IMG/VR virus record: IMGVR_UViG_3300042559_000463
Location: 1-25,356 of that record
Length of the DNA: 25,356 bases
From: a virus
Strand: one strand, 5' to 3'
The notes under the pieces were generated by a model. The model saw nothing but the letters and a program-made list of their open reading frames with translations, had not been told where the DNA came from and did no database searches. Both the position numbers and the translations under genes were made by a program. Shown here piece by piece: positions 13,954-25,356 of the stretch (position 1 is the stretch's first letter; each line of letters opens with the position of its first letter).

Positions 13954-14479
13954 ATCTGATTTAGTAAATCATCTTGATCAAATAAATCAAGTTGTCTCTG
14001 AATACCTAAAGGGAAATGATCCAACAGTAATTTCTAAAGAACTAGAGATACCAAGAGTTAGAGTAGTAGCTCTTATTAATGAATGGAAAGTTATGGCATC
14101 TGCCAATGACGCTATTCGTGCACGGGCTAAGGAAGCATTGGTAGGAGCAGATACACACTATACAAAATTAATTACAAAAGCATACGAAGTTATGGATGAA
14201 TCAAGCTTAACTAATAATCTAAGTGCCAAGACAGCATCCATTAAACTTGTTATGGATATTGAAAAATCTAGAATTGAAATGTTACAGAAAGCAGGTCTTC
14301 TTGAAAACAAAGAACTTGCAGAAGAGATGGTTGAGATTGAACGTAGGCAAGAAGTTTTAATTGGTATACTTCGTGATGTTGCTTCAGAACATCCAGAGAT
14401 ACGTGATTTAATTATGCAAAGACTTTCGTCTATTGCAAAAGAGGGTGAAGTGATTACAATTGTCCACGATGTTCAATGA
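13943..14479 (+). CDS. terS: Probable terminase small subunit (178 aa)
   Basis: The gene lies directly before terminase large and overlaps it by 11 bases. Residues 18-50 (SEYLKGNDPTVISKELEIPR) form a helix-turn-helix with an RVRVVALINEW recognition helix, as expected of a DNA-recognising TerS. The rest is long, charged, amphipathic helix (MDIEKSRIEMLQKAGLLE and VEIERRQEVLIGIL) suitable for oligomerisation. It would recognise the packaging site and feed the DNA to the large subunit. The function is inferred from position and architecture. Confidence 0.65.
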   Translation: MSTESDLVNHLDQINQVVSEYLKGNDPTVISKELEIPRVRVVALINEWKVMASANDAIRARAKEALVGADTHYTKLITKAYEVMDESSLTNNLSAKTASIKLVMDIEKSRIEMLQKAGLLENKELAEEMVEIERRQEVLIGILRDVASEHPEIRDLIMQRLSSIAKEGEVITIVHDVQ

Positions 14480-16244
14480 GTTTCTTGATGTATTAAAAGA
14501 AAATCATTTTGTTGAAACTCCTGTAGATGTTAAAACATTTGTTCAATCTCCAGAGTATTTAGGACAACCACTTTTATCTGACATTCAATATGAAATTGTT
14601 GAAGCCATGAGTCAGATCTATCGTAAAGAAGATTTAATTGATCTTATGGGCGAGGTAGAAGGCACAAAACATTTTAATAAATATACTAAGAATGAACTAA
14701 TACTTCAACTTGGCAAGGGTAGTGGTAAAGACTTTATATCAACAGTAGCCTGTGCATATGTAGTATATAAGCTTCTATGCCTTAAAGATCCAGCAGTTTA
14801 TTTTGGTAAGCCCCCAGGAGATGCTATTGATATTATTAACGTTGCAGTTAACGCACAACAGGCTAAGAATGTTTTCTTTAAGGGATTTAGAGTAAAGGTT
14901 GAAAAGTCACCTTGGTTTGCTGGGAAGTATAATCCAAAAGCAGACTCATTTGAATTTGACAAAGGCATAACTGTTTATTCTGGTCACTCAGAAAGAGAAT
15001 CTCATGAAGGTTTAAACCTTCTAATGGCAGTCCTTGATGAAATTTCTGGTTTTGCTACAGAGGTTGGAACTGGTAATGAACAGGGCAAGACCGCAGATAA
15101 TATTTATAAAGCATTCCGTGGAACAGTAGACTCTCGTTTCCCAGACTTGGGTAAGGTCGTTCTTCTTTCATTCCCACGCTATCAGGGTGACTTTATTTCT
15201 CAAAGGTATGAAGCAGTCATTGCTGAAAAAGAAACTATTGAACGCACACATACTTTCATAATGAATGAAGAATTACCACATGATGATCCAGGCAATCAAT
15301 TTGAAATTTCGTGGGATGAAGATACAATACTTCAATACAAAATACCAAGAGTATTTGCATTCAAAAGACCTACATGGGAAGTAAATCCTACACGTAAAAT
15401 AGAAGATTTTAAGTTAGCTTTTTATACAGACCTTGGTGATGCTATGATGCGTTTTGCATGTATGCCAACCTATGCCTCTGATGCATTTTTTAAACAAAAA
15501 GATAAGCTAGAAAGATGTATGAATTCTAGAAATCCATTAGATTCATTTAGAAGGTTTGACGAAACCTTTAAACCAGATCCAGATAAGGTTTATTATATTC
15601 ATGCTGACCTTGCACAAAAGCATGACAAGTGTGCTGTAGCAATAGCACATGTAGATAAATGGGTAAGTATTCAAGTAATTAAAGATTATGAGCAGGTAGC
15701 CCCAATTGTTGTTGTTGATGCCGTTGCATGGTGGGAGCCAAGAGCAGAGGGCCCAGTAAATCTTTCAGAAGTAAAACAATGGATTATGAATTTACGCAGA
15801 CAAGGTTTTAATTTAGGCATGGTTTCATTTGACCGATGGCAGTCATTTGATATTCAAAATGAATTACAGGCAGTTGGAATAAGAACTGAAACTGTTTCTG
15901 TTGCTAAAAAACATTATGAAGATTTAGCTATGATGATTTATGAAGAGCGTGTTGCTATTCCTATGATCCCAATACTGCTTGAAGAAATGTCAGAATTAAA
16001 AATAATGAAGGGTAACAGAGTTGACCACCCCCGTAAAAAATCTAAAGACTTAGCAGACGCAGTATGTGGAGCAGTATTTGGAGCTATTTCTCATACACAA
16101 AAGAATACTAATATAGAGATAGATGTCCATACTTGGAGCTCTAGTGCACGACTTGCACAAAAGCAAAGGGATATGGTAGAATTAGATAATCGGGAAATGC
16201 CTAACGATGTTAGAGATTTTCTTGATAAACTTAATCTAATATAA
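14469..16244 (+). CDS. terL: Terminase large subunit (DNA-packaging ATPase/nuclease)
   Basis: A 591-aa packaging motor. The ATPase has Walker A at residues 82-88 (GKGSGKD, with Asp where Thr or Ser is usual) and Walker B in LLMAVLDEISGF, with the catalytic Glu after the Asp. A coupling-like segment (VVLLSFPRYQGDF) follows. The C-terminal RNase H-like nuclease shows YYIHADLAQKHDKCAVAI (first Asp), MVSFDRWQS (second) and KKSKDLADAVCGAVFG (third). ATG 14469 is chosen; TTG 14460 would only add three residues. It is unusual that the terminase follows the replication genes directly. Confidence 0.92.
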   Translation: MFNEFLDVLKENHFVETPVDVKTFVQSPEYLGQPLLSDIQYEIVEAMSQIYRKEDLIDLMGEVEGTKHFNKYTKNELILQLGKGSGKDFISTVACAYVVYKLLCLKDPAVYFGKPPGDAIDIINVAVNAQQAKNVFFKGFRVKVEKSPWFAGKYNPKADSFEFDKGITVYSGHSERESHEGLNLLMAVLDEISGFATEVGTGNEQGKTADNIYKAFRGTVDSRFPDLGKVVLLSFPRYQGDFISQRYEAVIAEKETIERTHTFIMNEELPHDDPGNQFEISWDEDTILQYKIPRVFAFKRPTWEVNPTRKIEDFKLAFYTDLGDAMMRFACMPTYASDAFFKQKDKLERCMNSRNPLDSFRRFDETFKPDPDKVYYIHADLAQKHDKCAVAIAHVDKWVSIQVIKDYEQVAPIVVVDAVAWWEPRAEGPVNLSEVKQWIMNLRRQGFNLGMVSFDRWQSFDIQNELQAVGIRTETVSVAKKHYEDLAMMIYEERVAIPMIPILLEEMSELKIMKGNRVDHPRKKSKDLADAVCGAVFGAISHTQKNTNIEIDVHTWSSSARLAQKQRDMVELDNREMPNDVRDFLDKLNLI

Positions 16245-16262
16245 AAACTAACAAGGAGAAAG

Positions 16263-17330
16263 ATGAATTCATTCAAAAAGATATCGCTAATCATCGCTGC
16301 AGCCATGACTAGCACAGCGTTAACAATTGCACCTTCAAGTGCAGCACCTCTTGCAGTAACGGTAGCAGGTTCAGCAAACGCAACAACCGCTGCTGCACCA
16401 GCAACTGCAAACGTGCCAGCAGACAATAAAGTTGATTCAGCAGACGCTGTAGCACTTGTTGCAACTGCAGACACAGGAACAGTAGTTTCATTTGTATCAA
16501 CAGGTGGGGTCAAGCTTGTTCTTGCTTTGGACAATGCTCCAACAGCACCAGTTCTTGCATCAGCAGGAACAACATCATATTCAGCAACATCACAGGGAAC
16601 TGCAATTACTGTATATGCATTCACAACATCAACAAATACTGGATCAGTTACCATTACAAATGGTGCCTATTCAACAATTGTTTATGTTAAGGGTAATGCA
16701 GGAGCAGCATACAATGTTGGCATTTCAGTTCCTGCTGCAGCAGCAGTTGGAACAATTCCATCAGTCTCTGTAAATGTAACCGACGTATTTGGTAATCCAG
16801 TTGGCGGAGAAACAGTAACAGCAACACTTATTGGTGGAACATGGGCTGACGCTTCAATTTCAAAGTCAATTATTACATCAACAGCAGCAAATGTTGCTTC
16901 AGACTCAACACTTACACTTGGCTCAAAGGCTGAAAAGTTATCTGTTGCAGTTGCAGGAACAGTAACAGTTGCAGCAACAGGCGCAGCCTCTGCTACAGCA
17001 GTAACAGGTCTTGCTGCACCAATTAAGGCAGTTGTTGCATCATTTGCAGTAACAGATCTTAATGGAACAATTACTGCTCTTAATGCAAGAGTTGCAGCAC
17101 TTACTGCAGAACTAGCAGCAGCAAATGCTGGTCGTGCAGCAGATAAGATTGCATCAGATAAGGCACTTGCAGACGCAAAGGCAGCATCTGATTCAGCAAC
17201 AGTTACCGCAAAGGTAGCATCAGATATTGCACTTGCAACTGCAAAGGCAGAACACAAGGCAAAGTTTAATGCGCTTGCTAAGAAGTGGAATGCAAAGAAT
17301 CCAAAGGCTAAGGTTGCTCTAATTAAATAA
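16263..17330 (+). CDS. Exported Ala/Thr-rich surface-like protein (355 aa)
   Basis: Strong ribosome site AAGGAG (16254-16259) and a Sec signal peptide: MNSFKK, a hydrophobic core, then APSSAAP as a likely cleavage site near residue 28. The mature part is Ala/Thr/Val-rich with beta-type domains (residues about 60-250, including VSVNVTDVFGNPVGGETVTA, which resembles an Ig-like/invasin-type repeat). From about 265 to 325 it is a coiled coil (LNARVAALTAELAAA), followed by a basic tail with KKWNAKNPKAKVALIK. No virion gene has such a leader normally, so this looks like a host-type secreted or S-layer-like protein. Codons are strongly biased to GCA/ACA/GTT, suggesting high expression. A terminator follows. 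Similar tails are recalled from acI proteins, not checked. Confidence 0.7.
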   Translation: MNSFKKISLIIAAAMTSTALTIAPSSAAPLAVTVAGSANATTAAAPATANVPADNKVDSADAVALVATADTGTVVSFVSTGGVKLVLALDNAPTAPVLASAGTTSYSATSQGTAITVYAFTTSTNTGSVTITNGAYSTIVYVKGNAGAAYNVGISVPAAAAVGTIPSVSVNVTDVFGNPVGGETVTATLIGGTWADASISKSIITSTAANVASDSTLTLGSKAEKLSVAVAGTVTVAATGAASATAVTGLAAPIKAVVASFAVTDLNGTITALNARVAALTAELAAANAGRAADKIASDKALADAKAASDSATVTAKVASDIALATAKAEHKAKFNALAKKWNAKNPKAKVALIK

Positions 17331-17345
17331 CCTAGTCCAACAATT

Positions 17346-17374
17346 AGGGGGCCTAACAATAGGCTCCCTTTTTT
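17346..17374 (+). terminator. Intrinsic terminator after the exported-protein gene
   Basis: Ten-base-pair stem (17346-17355 with 17360-17369, one G-T wobble), loop ACAA, followed by a T tract to 17374. This is the strongest terminator in the window and isolates the downstream gene with its own promoter. Confidence 0.85.
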
Positions 17375-17384
17375 GTTTCTTAAA

Positions 17385-17393
17385 TGGTATAAT
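17385..17393 (+). promoter_or_regulatory. Extended -10 promoter, leaderless gene
   Basis: TGG plus TATAAT at 17388-17393, just after the terminator. The ATG begins at 17400, 12 bases after the first T of the box, where transcription should start. There is no ribosome site in between, so the mRNA is predicted to be leaderless. Confidence 0.65.
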
Positions 17394-17399
17394 TGAAGC

Positions 17400-17975
17400 A
17401 TGTTTGATTTAATTCAAGAAGCAAAAAAGAATAAACACGGACTAGTATTTGAAAAATATCAAATGCCAGAAATTACCTGGGAAGATATATTAAATCATAT
17501 ATACAAAGAATCTACACTAAATAACCCAGACTTGCGTAAAAAGGTAGAAAAATTTCAAAATCTAGAAGCTTTAGACTATATAGGAAATCTACAAATACAA
17601 AATAAAATGTGGCTAGCCCCACAAACAAATAATATATTTAAAGAATTTAAAGGAGTTTCTGAGCTGCTTTATAAACTTAACCAATCAAAAGAAAATCAAG
17701 AATGTGGATATTATTCTCAAAGAGGACATAGTTGCGATTTAGATTGGCACTACCAAGGTATAAGAATTTCTTTATCTAACAGATTTGTTCCCGATCACCA
17801 TGATCCACACGATATCTTTTATTGGCAAATAGTCGGAACATCTTTCTGGAAAATAGATGGGGGAATAACATACACACTGAATCCAGGAGATCTTTTATAC
17901 CTACCTCTAGAAAATTCACATGCAGTATGGTGTGATGGCCCAAGAGCAGGTTTATTAATAGATAATTTAAATTAA
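17400..17975 (+). CDS. JmjC/cupin-like Fe(II)/2-oxoglutarate oxygenase (191 aa)
   Basis: The C-terminal half is a double-stranded beta-helix of the JmjC/cupin_4 kind. The metal site is H133-H-D135 (HHDPHDIFYWQIVG), with the usual run D-x-F-x-x-Q-x-x-G-x-x-x-W (FWKI), then PGDLLYLPLENSHAVW with the distal histidine H174. These three residues (H133, D135, H174) would bind Fe(II). The N-terminal 90 residues are helical and not recognised. Members of this family hydroxylate ribosomal proteins, tRNA or small molecules; the substrate here is unknown. The gene has its own promoter, a leaderless start and no coupling to neighbours, so it looks like a moron acquired separately. Confidence 0.75.
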   Translation: MFDLIQEAKKNKHGLVFEKYQMPEITWEDILNHIYKESTLNNPDLRKKVEKFQNLEALDYIGNLQIQNKMWLAPQTNNIFKEFKGVSELLYKLNQSKENQECGYYSQRGHSCDLDWHYQGIRISLSNRFVPDHHDPHDIFYWQIVGTSFWKIDGGITYTLNPGDLLYLPLENSHAVWCDGPRAGLLIDNLN

Positions 17976-17976
17976 A

Positions 17977-17985
17977 TGATATAAT
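17977..17985 (+). promoter_or_regulatory. Extended -10 promoter before the large exported protein
   Basis: TGA plus TATAAT at 17980-17985. Predicted start near 17992 falls on the 5' arm of the hairpin described next. Confidence 0.55.
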
Positions 17986-17989
17986 AAGA

Positions 17990-18020
17990 CTATTAGTTAC
18001 CACCACAAACTAATAGGAGA
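17990..18020 (+). promoter_or_regulatory. 5'-terminal mRNA hairpin touching the ribosome site
   Basis: A perfect 9-bp stem, CTATTAGTT (17990-17998) with AACTAATAG (18008-18016), around the loop ACCACCACA. The last stem bases are also the start of the ribosome site AGGAGA (18015-18020). The predicted transcription start lies within the first three bases of the stem, so the mRNA would begin with this hairpin. It could shield the 5' end from decay or modulate ribosome access. Confidence 0.6.
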
Positions 18021-18024
18021 AAAA

Positions 18025-20241
18025 ATTAAAAACATACTAATCAAAATGGGATTAGTGGGGTTGCTTTTAACACTTTGGATGATATTCTCTCCTGCAGATT
18101 ATGCACATGCTGACGAAACTAATACAGTTCAAGTATCCCCCTCTGATCCTACAATAACAGAAAATGCAACAGCCACAATTGAGGTAGCTAATACTGAAAT
18201 ATCTCAGGCTGAAACCTATATAGAAGCTATAGAAAATAACGCAACAGCCATTACAAGCCCTACAGAAGCCATTACAGCCACTATTGCAGAGGCACAGGAC
18301 TCAATCACACAGGCTCAAGCAGTAGTAGATAGTGCTGCTGTGGCAGTTACCCAAGTTGATTCTGCTATAGTTTTAGTTGAAGAGGCTGAAGAAAATGTAG
18401 AAATTGCAGAAGTAGAAGTAGAATTACAGACAGAAGTTGTAGCAATAGCAACCACTAATTTAATTAATGCAGAAAATACTTTGGCTCAACTTGAAAACAC
18501 TCCCTCCGATTCTACAACTTATACAACAGAGGGCTACGTAGCACCAGTTGCTCCAGAGACACCAACAGTTAATACAACTACCCTTCCTGTTATGTATGAT
18601 GGCTCAACAAAAATTGAAACCCCATTTGATATTAAAATGGGCGATATCGTATACAACGGTCAAGGTGCAGATAGCCAAATCTATGTAACTTCAAAAGCAA
18701 CCATTACTTTTGGTATCGGAGATCATATTTGGTGGGATTTCCCTCAAGGAGCACACATTTCTGTTTATGGCTCTGACTTTATGAGTGGTGGTGCGGGAGC
18801 TGGTATTACCGTTACAACTACAGAAACAACTTTAGCTGTTGATTGGGATCTTCACAGATTTGGAGATAGCAACGGACCTATTACCAATGTTAATTGGACA
18901 ATGACTGTCAATCCTGATACTGGTGAATGGACAGGTATAGGAACTGTTTCTGGTAATACTACTAATTTATATAATGGTCCTCGTATTGGTGTTCGTGAAA
19001 CTGTTGGTCAGCCTGTAGAACAAATGACTAATGTAACTAATGAAAATTTAACGGAACAAATTCAAATTCAAGAAGCAGTAGTTGAAGATAAAACAGAAAT
19101 TAAAGCTATTGAGGTTTCAATACTTCAAACACTTACACAATTAAAAATAGAGGCAGAAGAAGATCTTGTTGAAGCAGAACAAAATCTTGAAGAGGCACAT
19201 GAAGTTTTAGAAACAACAATTAATCAAGTAGGTATTGCTATTGCATATATGAATACTAGTGTTAATGAAGCACGATCAGAAGTTAACAATGTTTTAGAAC
19301 AGGAAGAAGTTGCAAGGCAAGCATCATTAGCAGCACAGGCAGCAGCTCAGGCTGCACAAGCAGCAGCAGCAGAAGCAGAAGCAGCACAGGCAGCAGCAGA
19401 ACAAGCTGAAGCGGATCGTATAGCTGCAGAAGAAGCTGCAGCACAAGCAGAAGCAGAGGCTGAGCAAGCAGAAGAAGATAGAATTGCTGCAGAAGAAGCA
19501 GCAGAGCAAGCAGCACAGGAAGCAGCAGAACAAGAAGAGGCTGCAGCACAAGCAGCAGCTGAAGCAGCAGAGGCAGAGGCTGAAGAAGCACGTCAAGCAG
19601 AAGAAGATGCTAAAGCAGAAGCAGAAGCAAAAGAAGCAGAAGCAGAGGATGCTAGACAAGCAGAAGAAGACGCAAAAGCTGAAGCAGAAGCAAAAGAACA
19701 AGAAGAAGAAGAAGCTAAAGCTATAGAAGAAGAATTAAAAGAAATAGCAGAAGATGCAAAAGATGGAAAAGAATTAACTGAAGAGCAAAAAGAAAAAGTT
19801 ATTGAGGCATTACTTGAAGACCTTAAGCCTGGAGAATCTATATCAACAGCAGCAATTCAAGCTTCTGGAGTTTCATATGCAGATCTTCCGCCTTCAACAC
19901 CAATTGAAGTTCGCACTGATGAAAATGGAAATGCCCTTGTAATAACAGCAGCTGTTGCTGCAAATATTGAATTAGTCCAAGATCCAGGTGCGTTATTAAC
20001 TGCAGCATTTACAGACCCAGGAGCAGCATTAGCAGCACTGGGAAGTATTGGGGCAGATATGACTGAAGCAGAAAGAGAAGAAGCCACAAATATGGTTGTT
20101 GCAACAGTTGTAGCAGCAGGAGCAGCAATTAACGCTGCAGCAGTAGCAGCAGGTGGAGCAACTGGGGGCTCTACTGGAGGAGGTTCTGGTGGAGGCTCAG
20201 GCGCTAATTCACCAGGTTCAAGAGGAGGAAGAAAATGGTAA
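18025..20241 (+). CDS. Large exported coiled-coil protein with probable ATT start (738 aa)
   Basis: The first canonical start, ATG 18046, is 25 bases from the only ribosome site (AGGAGA, 18015-18020). The in-frame ATT at 18025 is correctly spaced and adds MKNILIK, giving the lysines that a Sec signal peptide needs before its hydrophobic core; cleavage is likely near AHA-D. Mature order: a helical coiled-coil region (to about 150), a beta domain (about 190-330, with YDGSTKIETPFDIKMGD and FGIGDHIWWDFPQG), a very long Ala/Glu/Lys coiled coil (about 400-590), a globular tail domain (PGESISTAAIQASGVSYADL), a hydrophobic Ala-rich helix and a Gly/Ser-rich end. It is a surface or spike-like adhesin or secreted host-manipulation factor; no enzyme motif is seen. 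Its stop overlaps the next gene. Confidence 0.7.
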   Translation: MKNILIKMGLVGLLLTLWMIFSPADYAHADETNTVQVSPSDPTITENATATIEVANTEISQAETYIEAIENNATAITSPTEAITATIAEAQDSITQAQAVVDSAAVAVTQVDSAIVLVEEAEENVEIAEVEVELQTEVVAIATTNLINAENTLAQLENTPSDSTTYTTEGYVAPVAPETPTVNTTTLPVMYDGSTKIETPFDIKMGDIVYNGQGADSQIYVTSKATITFGIGDHIWWDFPQGAHISVYGSDFMSGGAGAGITVTTTETTLAVDWDLHRFGDSNGPITNVNWTMTVNPDTGEWTGIGTVSGNTTNLYNGPRIGVRETVGQPVEQMTNVTNENLTEQIQIQEAVVEDKTEIKAIEVSILQTLTQLKIEAEEDLVEAEQNLEEAHEVLETTINQVGIAIAYMNTSVNEARSEVNNVLEQEEVARQASLAAQAAAQAAQAAAAEAEAAQAAAEQAEADRIAAEEAAAQAEAEAEQAEEDRIAAEEAAEQAAQEAAEQEEAAAQAAAEAAEAEAEEARQAEEDAKAEAEAKEAEAEDARQAEEDAKAEAEAKEQEEEEAKAIEEELKEIAEDAKDGKELTEEQKEKVIEALLEDLKPGESISTAAIQASGVSYADLPPSTPIEVRTDENGNALVITAAVAANIELVQDPGALLTAAFTDPGAALAALGSIGADMTEAEREEATNMVVATVVAAGAAINAAAVAAGGATGGSTGGGSGGGSGANSPGSRGGRKW
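19588..19698 (+). repeat. 16-residue protein repeat in the coiled coil
   Basis: The segment ARQAEEDAKAEAEAKE is encoded twice, at 19588-19635 and 19651-19698, separated by five codons. The copies differ at silent positions (CGT/AGA, GAT/GAC, GCT/GCA, GCA/GCT), so the repeat is old or held by selection on the protein, not a fresh DNA duplication. Confidence 0.75.
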
Positions 20242-20417
20242 GAATAATAAAAAATATAATAAAGGACCTAATAGATCAGGCATGGACTCTTCTTGGAATG
20301 TTTATTGCCTGGGTAGTATTAGATGGCAGTGCTAAAACCATAGTTGGATATGGAATCGTAGCAACAACAACCCTATGGATTATAACTAGTCCATTTAGAA
20401 ATAAGGAGGAAGAATAA
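20235..20417 (+). CDS. Small two-span membrane protein, holin-like (60 aa)
   Basis: Ribosome site GGAGGAAG (20224-20231) precedes ATG 20235, which overlaps the stop of the exported protein. Two hydrophobic segments are seen, about 17-31 (WTLLGMFIAWVVLDG) and 37-55 (IVGYGIVATTTLWIITSPF), with a charged C-terminus RNKEEE. Tiny two-span proteins encoded just before another membrane protein are typical of holin or antiholin pairs. Its ATG-overlapped successor is the other half of the pair. No lysin is visible nearby, which leaves the lysis role open. Confidence 0.6.
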   Translation: MVRIIKNIIKDLIDQAWTLLGMFIAWVVLDGSAKTIVGYGIVATTTLWIITSPFRNKEEE

Positions 20418-20701
20418 TGGCAACTAAAAAAATAGCAGTAGCCCCTAAAAAAGAGAGCCCACAAAAGGCTCTTCCAAACATTTTGATGCGTATTGTGGCG
20501 GTATTTGCAGCATCAGGATTATCAGTCCTAGGAGCAGGAGCAGTAGTAGGAATTGATACAATTCAGGCAGTAATGCTTGCAGGCCTACTAGGAGTAGCAA
20601 CAGTAGTTGAAAGGCTGGCTAGGGCTTTTTTGGACGATGGCAAGCTTACTATCGCAGAAATAAATGATGCATTTAAGACTGTAGATAAGAAGGCTAATTA
20701 G
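20417..20701 (+). CDS. Putative holin (94 aa)
   Basis: ATG 20417 overlaps the previous TAA by one base, with AAGGAGGAAG before it. A basic N-terminus (TKKIAVAPKK) is followed by two Ala/Gly/Val-rich hydrophobic segments, about 24-45 (MRIVAVFAASGLSVLGAGAV) and 50-66 (IQAVMLAGLLGVATVVE), and a soluble end with DDGKLTIAEINDAF. This is the layout of actinophage holins: helical hairpin in the membrane and a charged cytoplasmic tail. It would make the lesions that release the endolysin. Function is inferred from architecture and the small coupled partner. Confidence 0.6.
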   Translation: MATKKIAVAPKKESPQKALPNILMRIVAVFAASGLSVLGAGAVVGIDTIQAVMLAGLLGVATVVERLARAFLDDGKLTIAEINDAFKTVDKKAN

Positions 20702-20717
20702 TCATTATTGACTATGT

Positions 20718-20746
20718 TTGACAGCCCCTCTGGGCAATGCTATACT
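20718..20746 (+). promoter_or_regulatory. Consensus promoter of the HslV-like gene
   Basis: TTGACA at 20718-20723, a 17-base spacer and TATACT at 20741-20746 with extended -10 TGC. This is the best sigma70-type promoter in the window. Predicted start is near 20753. Confidence 0.75.
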
Positions 20747-20772
20747 TAAGTATACGTATCCAGAGGGGTTTT
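20725..20772 (+). promoter_or_regulatory. Inverted repeat hiding the ribosome site in read-through RNA
   Basis: CCCCTCTGG (20725-20733) pairs perfectly with CCAGAGGGG (20760-20768), followed by TTTT. The right arm holds the ribosome site of the HslV-like gene; the left arm lies in the promoter spacer, so it is absent from RNA made by this promoter. Only transcripts coming from the holin genes would fold it, giving a terminator-like structure or a blocked ribosome site. The loop contains the palindrome TATACTTAAGTATA. Confidence 0.65.
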
Positions 20773-20774
20773 CC

Positions 20775-21302
20775 ATGACTTGTATTGCTGTTGTTAGACA
20801 AGATAAAACTATCTATATGGCTGGAGATAGAGGTGCTTCAACAGAGGATTCTATCATAACACTTAAGGCTCCAAAGGTTTTCAAAATAGGTCCATATCTT
20901 TTTGGATATGCAGGAACTATGGATGGAGAAAGAATCCGTCACAACTTTAAACCACCAATTATAAAAGCTAATGCCAATGTAGATAAATTTATGTATACAG
21001 ATTTTCTTATTTCACTTAGAAATTTTTATGAAAATTGGTGGGTAGATATATCTAAAGACTCTGATTTTGGTATGCTAATTGCATTTAAGGGTAGAATATT
21101 TGAACACAATGCCGTTGATATGTCATTAACAGAATACGATGAAGAGTATCTTGCAATGGGTTCAGGAAGTGATTTTGCGCTAGGATCTTTATGGACAACT
21201 CAGCATCAAAAAAACGGTAAACGTAGAGCACAATTAGCAGTTGAAGCAGCGGTTAAATATTCAACATCTTGCATCGGACCAGTTGACGTAGTAAGCATTT
21301 AA
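20775..21302 (+). CDS. HslV/proteasome-beta-like Ntn peptidase (175 aa)
   Basis: The ATG is directly followed by ACT, so removing Met exposes Thr1 without a propeptide, as in HslV. Counting from that Thr, D17 (AGDRGAS) and K33 (LKAPKVF) sit at the exact positions of the catalytic Asp17 and Lys33 of proteasome beta subunits and HslV. The next landmarks are also present: FGYAGTMDG at about 40 and AMGSGSDFALG, matching the conserved GSGG-x-x-A segment. Length is near that of HslV (about 175 aa). No HslU or other AAA unfoldase gene is in the window. ATG 20775 after GAGGGG is the start; an upstream in-frame TTG at 20718 falls inside the promoter. A phage threonine peptidase for host proteins or scaffold is plausible. 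Confidence 0.8.
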   Translation: MTCIAVVRQDKTIYMAGDRGASTEDSIITLKAPKVFKIGPYLFGYAGTMDGERIRHNFKPPIIKANANVDKFMYTDFLISLRNFYENWWVDISKDSDFGMLIAFKGRIFEHNAVDMSLTEYDEEYLAMGSGSDFALGSLWTTQHQKNGKRRAQLAVEAAVKYSTSCIGPVDVVSI

Positions 21303-21305
21303 GGA

Positions 21306-21311
21306 TATACT
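21306..21311 (+). promoter_or_regulatory. Possible -10 box before the acidic protein gene
   Basis: TATACT begins 11 bases before ATG 21317, near the spacing of the leaderless genes, but lacks the TGn element and a -35. AAGG at 21301-21304 is too far to be a normal ribosome site. The evidence is weak. Confidence 0.3.
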
Positions 21312-21316
21312 TAACT

Positions 21317-21520
21317 ATGGATGAAATTAATAGTATCTTTGAAGATGGTCCAGAGTTTGATGAATTTGAAATTTGGTTAAACAATGGAATTGATCGGGGC
21401 TGGATAACAGAACCATTTTGTAACACACATGATGGTGATCCCTATATGACAGAAGAAGAAATGAAAGAGTGGGATGATGGCGGAAATCCTTGCCAAGTAG
21501 TTTTTAAGATAAAGGAATAA
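21317..21520 (+). CDS. Small acidic conserved-type phage protein (67 aa)
   Basis: A strongly acidic protein with many Glu/Asp and aromatic residues. Key piece: GWITEPFCNTHDGDPYMTEEE near residues 32-52, followed by WDDGGNPCQVVF. The Cys-x2-His and the later Cys may be structural. Such short proteins occur in many actinophage genomes next to regulatory genes, without known function. Transcription may come from the box at 21306 or from the HslV-like promoter. Confidence 0.6.
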   Translation: MDEINSIFEDGPEFDEFEIWLNNGIDRGWITEPFCNTHDGDPYMTEEEMKEWDDGGNPCQVVFKIKE

Positions 21521-21524
21521 ATAA

Positions 21525-22862
21525 ATGCCTATTATATGTATATTTGCAATTGCAATTGGTTCTATTCTATTTTCAACACCAACAGCAGATGCTTCTATAA
21601 TGTTTAGTAAAAGCTCATGTAATAAATCAGATTTAAATAAAATTAAGAAGAATAAGATTTGTCTTAAAAATGGTAAAAATTATACTTGGACAATAAAAAA
21701 GAAACCAATACAGGCTCCTGTAACTATTGCTAAACCAACTCCAACGCCTTTTCAGGTAGGAATTACATACACACCACCTTCAAGCCCTGGCCTACAAGTT
21801 GATGTATGCAAAATAAATGAACAAAGTAATGCCCGTGGTTCTACAGGAGCAGGATTTCCAGAATGGAATTCTTTAACTCCCAAAACAGGAACAGTTAAAT
21901 GGGCGCTAGTCCCAATAGATTTCACTGATATTCCTGGAGAAGTCGATTTCCGATCTAGAGTAAATAATCAGATGTTGCTACTTTCTGAATGGTTTGAAAC
22001 CGTTAGTGAGGGTAAGTTCAAGGTTGAGTGGGTGGTTGCTGATAAGTGGACAACCCTTTCTGGGAAATCAACTGATTATGAAGTTGAACAATCACAAAAC
22101 CTTGATAGAAGTCCAAATGGTTTAAAAATATTCCAAGAGTCAATAGCAAGAAGCGATGAAACTTTCGACTATACAGGTGTGCAAGTAGTAAATTTCATCC
22201 TTCCACTTAAACAGAAAAATATAAAGGAAACAGTGCAAGGATTCCCTTGGGACAGCGCTGTAAAAAATTACACAACAAATGAGGGAAAGATATCGGCGTT
22301 TACTATGCCTGGTGTATTTTTTAATGTAGACGGAAAAGGATATTGGGAATACTGGGCACATGAGTTTGGTCATTCAATAGGACTTCCCCATATTGGAACT
22401 TCTAGGGGAGTTTTTGGTCCTTTTCATTCACTAGATATTATGGGAGACCAAAGTGGTCCGACAAAAGAGTTAAGTGGATGGCTTCGATTCTTAGCTAGAT
22501 GGATGCCTGATGAAAAAATTTATTGTCAGGAACAAAACAATATTAAAGAAACTGAAATAATACTTGCGCCTTTAAGTTCTTTAGAGCAAGGAATTAAAAT
22601 GTCAATAATTAAATTAAGTGAATCAAAAGCCTTAATTATAGAATCTAGAAGAACAACTAAATTTTCCTATTCAGCATCATGGCTTAATGGGGTATTGGTA
22701 TATGTGTATGACGCAACTCTTGGCCATAATGAAGAATTTTTAATTCCAGCAAAAAAGACTGGTAGTTCATTGCTTTACCAAGGTGACAAAATAACAATTG
22801 AAGGAATAACTGTTGAAGTTTTGCTGAGTAAGAATCTTGATAAAATAAAAATAACAAGGTAG
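21525..22862 (+). CDS. Exported zinc metalloprotease (HExxHxxGxxH, M6-like)
   Basis: Ribosome site AAAGGA at 21511-21516. The N-terminus is hydrophobic (IICIFAIAIGSILF) with an ADAS cleavage-like site near residue 24, although the usual lysines before it are missing. Residues about 31-60 carry a small two-Cys motif (SSCNKSDLNKIKKNKICLK, then GKNYTW) that resembles N-terminal modules of host-type actinobacterial exported proteins. A Pro/Thr linker follows. The catalytic site is H279-E-F-G-H283-SIGLP-H289, with E280 as base, and a Met-turn-like LDIMGDQSGP after it, as in M6/metzincin peptidases. The final 140 residues are a beta-rich domain. It would cleave host or competitor surface proteins outside the cell. 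Confidence 0.8.
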   Translation: MPIICIFAIAIGSILFSTPTADASIMFSKSSCNKSDLNKIKKNKICLKNGKNYTWTIKKKPIQAPVTIAKPTPTPFQVGITYTPPSSPGLQVDVCKINEQSNARGSTGAGFPEWNSLTPKTGTVKWALVPIDFTDIPGEVDFRSRVNNQMLLLSEWFETVSEGKFKVEWVVADKWTTLSGKSTDYEVEQSQNLDRSPNGLKIFQESIARSDETFDYTGVQVVNFILPLKQKNIKETVQGFPWDSAVKNYTTNEGKISAFTMPGVFFNVDGKGYWEYWAHEFGHSIGLPHIGTSRGVFGPFHSLDIMGDQSGPTKELSGWLRFLARWMPDEKIYCQEQNNIKETEIILAPLSSLEQGIKMSIIKLSESKALIIESRRTTKFSYSASWLNGVLVYVYDATLGHNEEFLIPAKKTGSSLLYQGDKITIEGITVEVLLSKNLDKIKITR

Positions 22863-22866
22863 TTTT

Positions 22867-22939
22867 TGGTCTGTAGCTCAGTTGGTAGAGCGCCGAACTG
22901 TTAATTCGGATGTCGCAGGATCGAGACCTGCCAGACCAG
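22867..22939 (+). tRNA. tRNA-Asn (anticodon GTT)
   Basis: Seven-pair acceptor (22867-22873 with 22932-22938), D stem GCTC/GAGC, anticodon stem CCGAA/TTCGG with loop CTGTTAA (GTT at 22900-22902), T stem GCAGG/CCTGC and discriminator G at 22939. The T loop starts with A instead of T. No CCA is encoded. It begins four bases after the protease stop. Confidence 0.93.
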
Positions 22940-22943
22940 CAAT

Positions 22944-23017
22944 GCGGATATTGCATAGTGATAGTGCGTAACCTTGCCAAGGTTAATGTGTGGGTTTGAT
23001 TCCCTCTATCCGCTCCA
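22944..23017 (+). tRNA. tRNA-Gly (anticodon GCC), CCA encoded
   Basis: Acceptor 22944-22950 with 23007-23013, anticodon stem TAACC/GGTTA with loop TTGCCAA (GCC at 22976-22978), and CCA encoded at 23015-23017. The T stem has one T-T mismatch (22991/23005). It lies four bases after the tRNA-Asn, so the pair is probably processed from one transcript. Confidence 0.88.
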
Positions 23018-23034
23018 AACTATAGTATAAAATA

Positions 23035-23043
23035 TGTTATAAT
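23035..23043 (+). promoter_or_regulatory. Extended -10 promoter, leaderless gene
   Basis: TGT plus TATAAT at 23038-23043. ATG 23050 is 12 bases after the first T, exactly the geometry of the 17388 box. No ribosome site exists between. Confidence 0.65.
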
Positions 23044-23049
23044 AATACT

Positions 23050-23856
23050 ATGAAATCTATATACACTATCCCGCTTAAATCTGCGGAAGGCACAGAAGAT
23101 CACTTATCTCAATATATTGGTAAAGTAACACTTGTTGCCAATACAACAGTTGGTTGTGGAAACGCAAACCAAATGGAAGTTTTACAATGGCTTCAAGATA
23201 AATATGATAACGTTGATTTTGAAATCATTGCTATTCCAACAAATGATTACTGTGGTCCAGGGGTTACTAAGGGTAAGTGGTCACAAGGAATTACTTGTGG
23301 ACTAGACTCAAAAACATACGGAGAAGAAGTTTACGGAACCACTTTTAAGTTTTCGGAAATGGTTTCCTCTAATCCTAATAAAGATCTTAATGAACAACTT
23401 TCCAATGGTTTACCTGAAGGTGTCAATGGCTTAGGTCAAGAAACTCAACCACCACACGAGTTTTATAAAGAAATTTCAAATCAAATGATCTCATTATCAA
23501 ATATCAAGCATACTATAAAAGATGAAACTCCAGAAGGAGGATATTTATCTCCTTGGCTTAATAAAGGTTTTTACAATGGAGCTCAAATGGGTGGAAACTA
23601 TGAAAAATATCTTATTGATAGAGATGGATATGTTGTAAAGCATTTTGCCTGCACAACATTAAACTATGACATTGAAAAAACTCTCAAAGAGGCACTTATT
23701 GAAGCAGGAACACCAGCTGCAATGGGTGAAGGAAGAACTATGGAAGTCTTTAATGAAGAGTATGCTCTTATATGTAATGAAATAGAAAAACTAATTGCAG
23801 GAGCCAAATCTCCAATAAATCCTGCTTTTTCTGATAACCTACAACCTAGCTTTTAA
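23050..23856 (+). CDS. Glutathione-peroxidase-like thioredoxin-fold protein (268 aa)
   Basis: The first 70 residues follow the peroxidase fold: GKVTLVANTTVGCGNANQ with the reactive cysteine at C36, then a helix and FEIIAIPTNDYCGP, the counterpart of the FPCNQF segment. The C-terminal YEKYLIDRDGYVVKHF matches the last strands of glutathione peroxidase. Between them are about 100 extra residues (75-180) with no counterpart in the ordinary 160-aa enzyme. Of the catalytic tetrad, Gln appears replaced (NDY) and Trp by Gly (GGNYEKY), so activity may differ. It has its own leaderless promoter and no coupling to neighbours. A role in protecting infection from peroxide is plausible. Confidence 0.7.
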   Translation: MKSIYTIPLKSAEGTEDHLSQYIGKVTLVANTTVGCGNANQMEVLQWLQDKYDNVDFEIIAIPTNDYCGPGVTKGKWSQGITCGLDSKTYGEEVYGTTFKFSEMVSSNPNKDLNEQLSNGLPEGVNGLGQETQPPHEFYKEISNQMISLSNIKHTIKDETPEGGYLSPWLNKGFYNGAQMGGNYEKYLIDRDGYVVKHFACTTLNYDIEKTLKEALIEAGTPAAMGEGRTMEVFNEEYALICNEIEKLIAGAKSPINPAFSDNLQPSF

Positions 23857-23858
23857 GT

Positions 23859-23888
23859 TTGACATAAACCCTATAATTCTGCTATAAT
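23859..23888 (+). promoter_or_regulatory. Consensus promoter of the Hsp20 gene
   Basis: TTGACA at 23859-23864, 18-base spacer, TATAAT at 23883-23888 with extended -10 TGC. Predicted start at 23895. Confidence 0.7.
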
Positions 23889-23894
23889 AGTTAT

Positions 23895-23913
23895 GTATTG
23901 CCTTCGGGGATAC
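23895..23913 (+). promoter_or_regulatory. 5'-terminal UUCG hairpin in the Hsp20 mRNA
   Basis: GTATTGCC, loop TTCG, GGGATAC: a stem of about seven pairs with one bulged G, closed by a very stable C(UUCG)G tetraloop. Its first base is the predicted transcription start, so the RNA begins in the hairpin. It probably stabilises the message. AAAGGGG (23931-23937) then precedes ATG 23944. Confidence 0.6.
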
Positions 23914-23943
23914 ATTAACTTATTCGCTTGAAAGGGGAATAAA

Positions 23944-24360
23944 ATGGTAACACAGTTTGCTATGGATCTTTTTAATGATCCTTTTTTTATTGGCTTTAAC
24001 AGAGAGTTAGGCCGTCTTAATACCGCACACAAAACAAATTCACAAGCATATCCTCCATATGATCTTCTTAAATTAGATGAAGATACATATAGACTTTCAG
24101 TAGCAATTGCTGGATTTACAAAAGATAATGTTGATGTTTCTGTAGACAACGGAACTCTTGTTATTAAAGGAGAAATTGTTGAAGTAACTGATGCTGAAGT
24201 TGTTCACAAAGGAATTGCATCTAGAAAGTTTACACGTTCATTTGCTCTTGGAGAGTATATGGAAGTTACTGGTGCTGATCTTAAAGATGGAATGCTACAC
24301 GTAAGTATTGATCGTGTTGTTCCTGAAGAAAAGAAACCAAAAACAATTAAGATAAAGTAG
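23944..24360 (+). CDS. hsp20: Hsp20 small heat-shock protein (138 aa)
   Basis: An alpha-crystallin domain occupies about residues 36-130: PPYDLLKLDEDTYRLSVAIA opens it, AGFTKDNVDVSVDNGTLVIKG is the typical central segment, and ADLKDGMLHVSIDRV matches the conserved A-x-x-x-G-x-L-x-I end. The N-terminal arm is IbpA-like (MDLFNDPFFIGFNRELGRL), and the basic tail ends with the I-x-I motif (IKIK). It holds unfolding proteins in solution; phage Hsp20 proteins are known in cyanophages and are thought to aid assembly or host stress survival. Strong consensus promoter and a 5' hairpin suggest high expression. Confidence 0.93.
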   Translation: MVTQFAMDLFNDPFFIGFNRELGRLNTAHKTNSQAYPPYDLLKLDEDTYRLSVAIAGFTKDNVDVSVDNGTLVIKGEIVEVTDAEVVHKGIASRKFTRSFALGEYMEVTGADLKDGMLHVSIDRVVPEEKKPKTIKIK

Positions 24361-24366
24361 TATAAT
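24361..24366 (+). promoter_or_regulatory. Possible -10 of the intergenic RNA
   Basis: TATAAT starts directly after the Hsp20 stop. It lacks TGn and a recognisable -35. A start near 24373 would place a small hairpin (GTCG with CGAC at 24387-24390) at the RNA's 5' end. Confidence 0.4.
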
Positions 24367-24370
24367 AGAA

Positions 24371-24490
24371 CTGTCGGGGGAGACAGCGACATAAAATATC
24401 TGGCATGTCCTACACAGGACCTTAGTGATGGTTTAGTTACCCATTAATTATAACCGTGGCGCACTGCAGACGGATTACCTGTGTAGGACT
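24371..24490 (+). ncRNA. Structured intergenic RNA candidate
   Basis: The 154-base gap between Hsp20 and the HNH gene has no ORF but contains nested pairing. CTGTC (24371-24375) can pair with GACAG (24382-24386). GTCCTACACAGG (24407-24418) pairs perfectly over 12 bp with CCTGTGTAGGAC (24478-24489), enclosing 59 bases with smaller helices such as ATGG/CCAT (24428-24431 with 24441-24444) and CCGT/ACGG (24454-24457 with 24470-24473). The closing helix makes a compact multi-branched RNA likely. There is no T tract after it, so it is not a simple terminator. It is not a tRNA or tmRNA. A regulatory RNA or a leader element is possible; the class is unknown to me. Confidence 0.5.
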
Positions 24491-24499
24491 CTTAATTGC

Positions 24500-24508
24500 T
24501 GATATAAT
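24500..24508 (+). promoter_or_regulatory. Extended -10 promoter, leaderless GTG gene
   Basis: TGA plus TATAAT at 24503-24508, with GTG 24515 again 12 bases after the first T. No ribosome site. Confidence 0.6.
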
Positions 24509-24514
24509 ATTATT

Positions 24515-24790
24515 GTGACTAACAAAGAGTTGGATCATTACAATAAGCAGCAGTTTAAAAAAAGACTGTCAGAGATTAAAGAAGCATCTGGATGTGTAGA
24601 TTGTGGAATCAATAATCATATACTTTTAGATTTTGATCATCTCAAAGATAAAAAATATAATATTTCAAGAATGATCCACGATGGATTTTCTTGGGCAGCA
24701 ATTAAAAAAGAAATTGCAAAATGTGAAGTAGTATGTGCAAACTGCCATAGAATTAGAACTTATAATAGGTTAACAAAAAAAATAGCTTAG
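24515..24790 (+). CDS. HNH-type nuclease-like protein (91 aa)
   Basis: C27-V-D-C30 and, near the end, C-x2-C with H (VVCANCHRIRT) are the zinc knuckles of a phage HNH protein. The H-N-H core reads LLDFDHLKDKKYNISRMI, with the catalytic-type His after Asp, and a helix SWAAIKKEIAKC before the second knuckle. The start is GTG 24515, which fits the leaderless promoter; there is no nearby ATG. It is either a homing-type endonuclease or a packaging-associated nicking enzyme; as the terminase lies elsewhere and the gene has its own promoter, a free-standing homing element is favoured. Confidence 0.8.
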   Translation: MTNKELDHYNKQQFKKRLSEIKEASGCVDCGINNHILLDFDHLKDKKYNISRMIHDGFSWAAIKKEIAKCEVVCANCHRIRTYNRLTKKIA

Positions 24791-24801
24791 TGCTATTCTT
24801 T
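24781..24801. terminator. Small bidirectional terminator between convergent genes
   Basis: AATAGC (24781-24786) pairs with GCTATT (24792-24797) around TTAGT. An A run stands before it and a T-rich run after it, so it can work in both directions. Both genes' stop codons lie within the hairpin. The stem is only 6 bp and AT-rich, so it may be weak. Confidence 0.45.
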
Positions 24802-25353
24802 ATTTAAAACAAAAACTATTCGATCTGACATATAACCATAATCAGTATCAAGTTCGTATTTTTTAATGTCTAATATGCTAAAACCATTATTTGTAAAAAT
24901 TTCCGTAAGTGTTGTTTCTGACAATAGATTATATTCGCTAGGAAGAAGTAAATCTTTTTCAATAAAAGCAGTTTCAAAAATAATTGTTTTTATATTTGGG
25001 TAAGAAGAAATATCTGAAACCATAGATTGAACATCGTCTACGTAATAAGACACTCCTAAACAAAAAATAACATCTATATTTTGAAGAAGATCTAAATAGT
25101 TTTCTGTGTTTAAATTCTTATTTATAAAGTTTATATCTGGATGTAAAGATTTTCCAAGATCGCAGTTGCTAGGATTTTTCTCTATGCCAGTTATTGACTT
25201 TGCCCCAAATGAAAAAGCTAAATTAGCTAAATGCCCTTGATGAATTCCAAGATCTAGAATATCTTTATCTTGAATTAGTTCAATAGTTTTTGCATTAAAT
25301 ATATTAGACACCCTAATTTCTTGGGTGTAGTCTTCTTCTCTTGGTTTTTCCAT
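24793..25353 (-). CDS. SAM-dependent class I methyltransferase-like protein (186 aa)
   Basis: The only convincing - strand gene. Motif I is at residues 31-40 (DILDLGIHQG), where the usual G-x-G-x-G is changed to G-I-H-Q-G; the motif II acidic residue is E58 (ITGIEKN), and the next core strand reads IDVIFCLGVSYYVDD. The C-terminal part keeps the FTNNGFSILDIKKYEL pattern of Rossmann methyltransferases. The catalytic substrate cannot be told: there is no DPPY/NPPY motif of DNA adenine or cytosine N4 methylases and no PC motif of C5 methylases, so a small molecule, tRNA or glycan substrate is more likely. The start ATG is three bases from the window edge; the promoter is outside. Confidence 0.7.
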   Translation of the reverse strand: MEKPREEDYTQEIRVSNIFNAKTIELIQDKDILDLGIHQGHLANLAFSFGAKSITGIEKNPSNCDLGKSLHPDINFINKNLNTENYLDLLQNIDVIFCLGVSYYVDDVQSMVSDISSYPNIKTIIFETAFIEKDLLLPSEYNLLSETTLTEIFTNNGFSILDIKKYELDTDYGYMSDRIVFVLNKE

Positions 25354-25356
25354 ATA

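Follow-up and report, generated by a model that had tools for sequence, protein, structure and literature searches.

How could a proteasome-like peptidase encoded by a virus work when no unfoldase is encoded with it? This question is raised by a gene in the IMG/VR virus record IMGVR_UViG_3300042559_000463, analyzed here over positions 1 to 25,356 (25,356 nucleotides, herein referred to as the window). A preliminary description, made from the sequence alone, had interpreted the gene as an HslV/proteasome-like threonine peptidase flanked by holin genes and an exported protease and controlled by the strongest promoter seen. Genes of this kind have been met before. A survey of 2021 reported 22 new proteasome homologs, among them PPH and AAH, both carried by phages; no AAA+ partner was found for these homologs, and their partners, contexts, and functions were not known (Fuchs, Alva, Lupas, 2021; PMC8665760). 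HslV without HslU was also noted in a Salmonella jumbo phage (PMC7823757). Phage HslV-like genes lacking an HslU/AAA+ partner are thus an already described kind and are not what is new here; the interest of the locus lies in a partner gene and a control element, both overlooked in the preliminary description, rather than in the missing unfoldase. The features of the locus are listed in Table 1.

Table 1. Features of the peptidase locus and the terminase gene (positions within the window).
Feature	Position	Strand	Remarks
Terminase large subunit	14460..16244	+	53% identity over 594 residues (full length) to Streptomyces phage Yaboi
Membrane-protein-like gene, 60 aa	20235..20417	+	In 52 of 57 relatives; outside the module
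Small membrane protein, 94 aa	20417..20701	+	Weak holin PHROG match; conserved neighbor, outside the module
Sigma-70-type promoter	20718..20746	+	TTGACA-N17-TATACT, TG before the -10; 11/12
Hairpin (predicted)	20720..20773	+	5' arm in the promoter spacer, 3' arm over the Shine-Dalgarno; -27.7 kcal/mol, z -4.9
Proteasome/HslV-like N-terminal threonine peptidase	20775..21302	+	175 aa; Thr1 (20778-20780), Asp17, Lys33
Acidic partner protein, 67 aa	21317..21520	+	pI 4.05; starts 14 nt past the peptidase stop codon
Exported metalloprotease-like gene	21525..22862		Zinc motif HEFGHSIGLPH

Reading Frame and Catalytic Residues

According to the ORF listing and its translation, the peptidase frame opens with ATG ACT TGT (M-T-C) and comprises 175 codons. 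After removal of Met1, T1, D17, and K33 fall exactly at the canonical proteasome numbers, as had been claimed in the preliminary description, and these positions are kept in the clade. Thus, Thr1 and Lys33 were found in all 34 aligned sequences of the viral clade, and position 17 is occupied by Asp (21 sequences) or Glu (13 sequences). Glu17 occurs in the Thermoplasma beta subunit as well. The Ser129 equivalent is also retained in 34 of 34 viral sequences. The alignment of bacterial relatives retains Thr or Ser, Asp, and Lys at the three catalytic positions.

In the window, the frame is formally open up to a TTG at 20718, giving a 194-codon ORF. This TTG was ruled out as the real start, since it is not conserved and since many relatives have an in-frame stop 1-9 codons 5' of the Thr-starting frame. 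In all 63 close IMG/VR relatives (59-100% identity), Thr directly follows the start codon, which is ATG or GTG; a TTG start before Thr was found in a few further relatives. The stops located just upstream indicate that Thr1 is the mature, exposed N-terminus. An N-terminal extension, named in the preliminary description as an observation that would speak against its reading, was looked for and not upheld.

The protein matches phrog_1040 ("peptidase HslV family") over residues 1-175 (E=9.7e-23), and its score with the Pfam Proteasome profile, 20.3 bits, is slightly below the cut-off of 22.4. The phrog_1040 match, the residues, and the predicted fold (see below) support the identification of the viral protein as a phage-encoded, putatively active Ntn threonine peptidase of the proteasome/HslV superfamily.

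Predicted Fold

The structure prediction and comparison with HslV that had been suggested for this protein were carried out. An AlphaFold2 model of the monomer, based on an alignment of 62 sequences, has a mean pLDDT of 94.3 and displays the proteasome-beta sandwich fold with a compact HslV/BPH core. No propeptide is present in the model, whereas helices H1-H4 are, including both the helix at 51-57 and that at 69-87. In the search with Foldseek and VIA-align, the top fold match was BPH (5ovt; Z 20.2, rmsd 2.4 A, 164 residues, 23% identity), followed by HslV (6kr1; Z 19.7). Residue 2 of the model superposes on residue 1 of both BPH and HslV; judged from this superposition, from Thr1 onward, Thr1, D17, and K33 very likely converge.

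Other parts of the predicted structure deviate from the known enzymes. The loop at 88-98 (WWVDISKDSDF, ~11 residues) is acidic but short and Trp/Asp-rich, whereas the pore loop of BPH is long and very acidic. At the C-terminal site of the catalytic network, FDKSS of BPH faces YSTSC of the viral peptidase in the sequence alignment. The canonical Asp166/Ser169 pair therefore appears to be replaced, with Ser at the position of Asp166; this reading of the alignment counts against the explanation as a working peptidase.

Relation to Known Proteasome Homologs

The viral peptidase resembles HslV (ClpQ) in fold, length, and the Thr1/Asp17/Lys33 set. Nevertheless, the HslV label did not hold for the protein itself: its scores with the two HslV equivalog models are 23.0 bits against a cut-off of 157.75 and 21.5 bits against 137, its nearest fold is BPH, no HslU partner was found, and HslV is not marked for the phylum of the probable host, Actinobacteria (Fuchs et al., Table 1; PMC8665760). 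PPH, like the viral protein, is a phage-encoded group I proteasome homolog, but it has ~140 residues and lacks helix H2; with 175 residues and both helices, the viral peptidase was excluded from this family. BPH, the best fold match, shares with the viral peptidase the absence of a known unfoldase and the exposure of Thr1 by Met removal, but differs in its hosts and in having near the C-terminus a catalytic Asp that is not aligned in the viral protein. BPH had no activity in vitro on standard peptides or on casein, and no cleavage could be shown, perhaps for lack of a cofactor (PMC5777263). This inertness is counted against an active viral peptidase.

The closest described group is AAH/PHROG 1040. 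The members of this group likewise start with MT(C/A)I, contain T1-D17-K33, have ~175 residues, are found in phages, and have no AAA+ neighbor, and the profile matches the entire length of the viral peptidase. Deposited phages with a relative at E<=0.01 number 159, mainly T5-like Salmonella and E. coli phages and also phages of Vibrio, Aeromonas, and others, none closer than ~34% identity. One viral scan, seeded from a Vibrio phage protein, gave no matches. Bacterial relatives, 20-33% identical, occur in Azospirillum, rhizobia, and others, and also on Streptomyces plasmids, which fits AAH. The tree sets the viral clade beside the phage sequences with weak support. The clade itself is separate and monophyletic (100/100) on a long stem, and differs from the other AAH/PHROG 1040 sequences (~20-34% identity) in several traits: the motif TSSFRMGQ is changed to GTMDGERI, Ser129 is retained, in contrast to Cys in most bacterial relatives, a WWVD loop and Cys166 are invariant, the hosts are those of actinophages, and a 67-aa partner is fixed.

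Several relatives deserve mention in their own right. Relatives are frequent on the large plasmids of legume-nodule Rhizobium, Sinorhizobium, and Paraburkholderia (H133-H168), where they are annotated as hypothetical only. The Aeromonas phage 2L372X (L149) has two adjoining HslV-family genes, which might form hetero-rings, and the Pseudoalteromonas phage J2-1 (L147) encodes a 388-aa HslV-family fusion with possible extra domains.

Host, Distribution, and Absence of an Unfoldase

At least 560 IMG/VR stretches encode a peptidase of this clade, and a PHROG 1040 member was found in each of the 13 long relatives (49-118 kb). The terminase of the window is similar to those of Yaboi and its kin (Stanwilliamsviridae). 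WhiB was found above the cut-off in 11 of the 13 long relatives; among 14 control genomes, the WhiB profile matches Corynebacterium only. The likeness of the terminase and the presence of WhiB indicate that the host is very probably an actinobacterium. A neighboring gene resembles one of the lake phage DSL-LC01, and this gene similarity would point to a freshwater habitat. Yaboi itself contains neither the peptidase nor the partner gene, and DSL-LC01 contains no partner gene.

Actinophages as abundant carriers of a tight PHROG 1040 clade, in hundreds of IMG/VR stretches, are new here; in the survey of 2021, AAH was not encountered in any phage specific to Actinobacteria (Fuchs et al.; PMC8665760). 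Actinophage carriers of this fold are, however, not without precedent, since a protein of the Gordonia phage Daredevil with the same fold was found in a viral fold library. Capture of the gene from a host was rejected, as no close-clade relative was found in 84,980 species genomes searched with patterns and the Streptomyces plasmid homolog groups elsewhere.

The earlier remark that no HslU/ClpX-type partner is encoded holds for the window, where no AAA+ unfoldase was found in the ORF listing, and extends to the 13 long relatives. In none of these, some of which may be incomplete contigs, did PF00004 or PF07724 score above the cut-off, and one had a sub-threshold PF00004 match of 17.3 bits. Both profiles match all 14 control genomes, although a small or novel type of motor may escape them. 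HslU (TIGR00390) had no match in the two long relatives searched with it.

Small Acidic Partner Gene

The peptidase gene is followed by a gene for a small acidic protein with the conserved motif C-x-T-H-(D/E)-G ... E-E-x-x-E-W-x-x-G-G-(D/N)-P-C; a W, C-x-T-H, E-E-x-x-E-W, and G-G-x-P-C do not vary. This gene was found in 52 of the 57 peptidase loci examined, mostly 8-15 nt downstream or with an overlap of a few bases and sometimes behind an inserted gene. In all testable relatives it adjoins the peptidase gene or lies within ~1 kb of it. Two reciprocal scans from the partner, with different seeds and taking the best 80 loci each (some contigs shared with the first scans), showed the peptidase preceding the partner in the same orientation in 79 of 80 loci in one scan and in 76 of 80 in the other; in each of the five exceptions the contig breaks off, in one case within an inserted gene. 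More distant forms of the partner may occur alone. Thus, a same-strand peptidase gene is present upstream in all 155 partner-seeded loci with sufficient upstream sequence. Each long relative has one copy of each gene. Judged by gene order, peptidase and partner constitute a two-gene module, and the partner is not described before.

The model of the partner has a moderate pLDDT of 77; a PDB search gave no matching fold for it, and it shows no antitoxin-like DNA-binding fold. A tblastn search with the 67-aa protein, a query low in complexity, found nothing in cultured phages. A promoter-like site at 21283-21311, TTGACG-N17-TATACT (10/12), spans the 3' end of the peptidase gene, and through it the partner may also be made separately from the peptidase. 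The inserted genes between peptidase and partner, ~0.6-1 kb, were found in L237 (1-389), L218, L219, L222, and L259; that of L237 resembles the C-terminus of a 2-oxoglutarate oxygenase.

The peptidase had been placed between holin genes on one side and an exported protease on the other, which was true in one half only. The small membrane genes upstream are conserved, whereas the metalloprotease-like gene, present in no more than 5 of 57 relatives, belongs to the variable cargo and was ruled out as part of the unit. The product of the 94-aa gene matches phrog_26427, labeled "nuclease"; the label is probably wrong, as the product is membrane-protein-like. Farther upstream, 18046-20241 encodes an apparently secreted, Ala/Glu-rich, coiled-coil-like protein of 731 aa with no PHROG or Pfam match; in 42 of 57 relatives, a similar protein is encoded before the membrane-protein genes.

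Promoter Within a Predicted Hairpin

In 35 of 40 relatives, a promoter scoring at least 10/12 lies at a roughly constant distance from the start; ~1.2 were expected from shuffles. In the scanned region 16000-25356 of the window, the promoter of the peptidase is strong, as had been stated, but it is not the strongest, being second to a 12/12 site before an Hsp20-like gene. The latter site, TTGACA-N18-TATAAT, lies within 23859-23960, with a UUCG-capped hairpin in the leader of the Hsp20-like gene (23944-24360), a gene of varying position among relatives. Beyond that gene, a perfect 12-bp inverted repeat (GTCCTACACAGG/CCTGTGTAGGAC, 24407-24418 and 24478-24489) with arms ~60 nt apart is intergenic; it may form a structured RNA and has no Rfam match.

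When the 66-nt region before the peptidase gene is folded, AGCCCCTCTGGG of the promoter spacer forms a stem with CCAGAGGGGTT around the Shine-Dalgarno AGAGGGG (20762-20768), which lies inside the 3' arm and is followed by TTTT (20769-20772). The same prediction was made for 70 distinct upstream sequences, consisting of the window and 69 representatives below 90% identity (one locus, L001, repeats the window): in 30 of the 70, z is below -3 with the ribosome-binding site (RBS) paired. The arms of one locus average -14.0 kcal/mol with each other and -9.2 kcal/mol when swapped between loci (0 of 20000 permutations); for hairpin-bearing loci only, the values are -21.9 and -14.7 kcal/mol. These permutations leave shared ancestry in; the swapped-arm test was used because the MAFFT hairpin alignment misplaced arms. 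Plainly different arm pairs were found among relatives, namely CCCCTCTGG/CCAGAGGGG, CCCCTAGCT/GGCTAGGGG, and CCCTCTCC/GGAGAGGG. Such pairing was found at 1 of 20 strong promoter sites in the window and at 1 of 95 and 2 of 71 in two long relatives, that of the peptidase being the strongest each time and one other site reaching below -15 kcal/mol. An Rfam scan found two tRNAs only. About half of the distinct relatives lack the hairpin although the promoter is kept, so that control by the hairpin is not essential to the module. The conserved promoter within a covarying, RBS-covering hairpin is, as predicted from sequence and folding, new here.

Most relatives with the hairpin have a T-run after the 3' arm, and the element is located directly 3' of the upstream stop codon. 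Both facts agree with a mere intrinsic terminator of the upstream genes that overlaps the promoter and has no role in translation, an explanation compatible with any reading of the peptidase. On the other hand, the arms coincide precisely with the promoter spacer and the ribosome-binding site. Moreover, in L215 and L228, which carry a divergent peptidase variant, the pairing extends to the start codon (TAGGCATG) and the T-run is absent. We consider the chances of a terminator alone to be a little short of even. Whether the hairpin terminates transcription or hides the RBS, only RNA started inside it would be productive. This logic resembles that of the T4 genes I-TevI, e, and soc, for which only internally started RNA escapes the RBS-hiding hairpin (PMC2988022). 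As in those genes, the promoter is inside the hairpin and the RBS would be hidden in read-through RNA; unlike them, the viral locus has a host-type sigma-70 consensus, the -10 inside the hairpin, and usually a T-run.

Proposed Mechanism and Alternatives

The explanation that we favor, with somewhat better than even chances, is a self-compartmentalizing HslV/BPH-like threonine peptidase without an encoded AAA+ protein, forming a two-gene unit with an acidic adaptor, activator, or inhibitor. The peptidase is most likely an ATP-independent enzyme of narrow specificity and of the compartment or ring type, which the partner would help or restrain. The host methionine aminopeptidase would remove Met1 and expose Thr1, and the subunits would form a double ring enclosing the active sites. 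Substrates that are unstructured or delivered specifically could then enter the ring without ATP, with the small acidic partner controlling entry or activity. Read-through RNA from the upstream holin-like genes would fold into the hairpin, leading to termination and/or a hidden RBS, whereas RNA from the internal promoter, without the 5' arm, would be translated. The peptidase would thereby be made on its own schedule, by the same logic as the T4 genes (PMC2988022).

Alternatively, the protein could be a specific processing enzyme or a connectase-like transpeptidase or ligase acting on one phage or host target, with the partner as substrate or receptor. Connectase is a member of the superfamily that turned into a monomeric specific ligase (PMC8665760), and the clade-specific invariants and the fixed small partner would suit such a role. 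The model, however, lacks the insertion that connectase has between strands 3 and 4 and retains the compact core, and we regard this function as unlikely.

Docking of the peptidase on a host AAA+ ring, either HslU, ClpX/ClpC, or the actinobacterial proteasomal ATPase, is still less probable. HslV requires HslU, and as none is encoded in the phages, a host one could serve. Borrowing of HslU in particular is improbable, given an actinobacterial host and HslV unmarked for Actinobacteria. Moreover, the sequence of the peptidase is distant from HslV, no co-occurring AAA+ protein was found for related families (PMC8665760), and the phage brings its own fixed small partner instead.

It is very unlikely that the partner is an immunity-like inhibitor and that the pair, close to the lysis genes, acts as a toxin-antitoxin or timed-killing unit: the fixed two-gene order, the very acidic partner, the adjoining holin-like genes, and the tight expression control would fit, but the partner gene comes second, in some relatives ~1 kb off behind an inserted gene, its product has no antitoxin-like fold in the model, and addiction modules are of little use to lytic phages.

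Returning to the self-compartmentalizing peptidase, a bolder version of it is put forward as a tentative possibility: the locus may encode a complete two-component, ATP-independent viral proteasome-like system, in which the ring is gated or targeted by the CxTH...GGDPC protein and the pair is switched separately by the promoter in the terminator or RBS-hiding hairpin. In any case, the inseparability of the peptidase gene from one small gene provides a concrete cofactor candidate for proteasome homologs, and the predicted hairpin-promoter represents a compact regulatory element. With this clade, abundant actinophages join the carriers of such homologs, among which the 2021 survey had found no actinophage with AAH.
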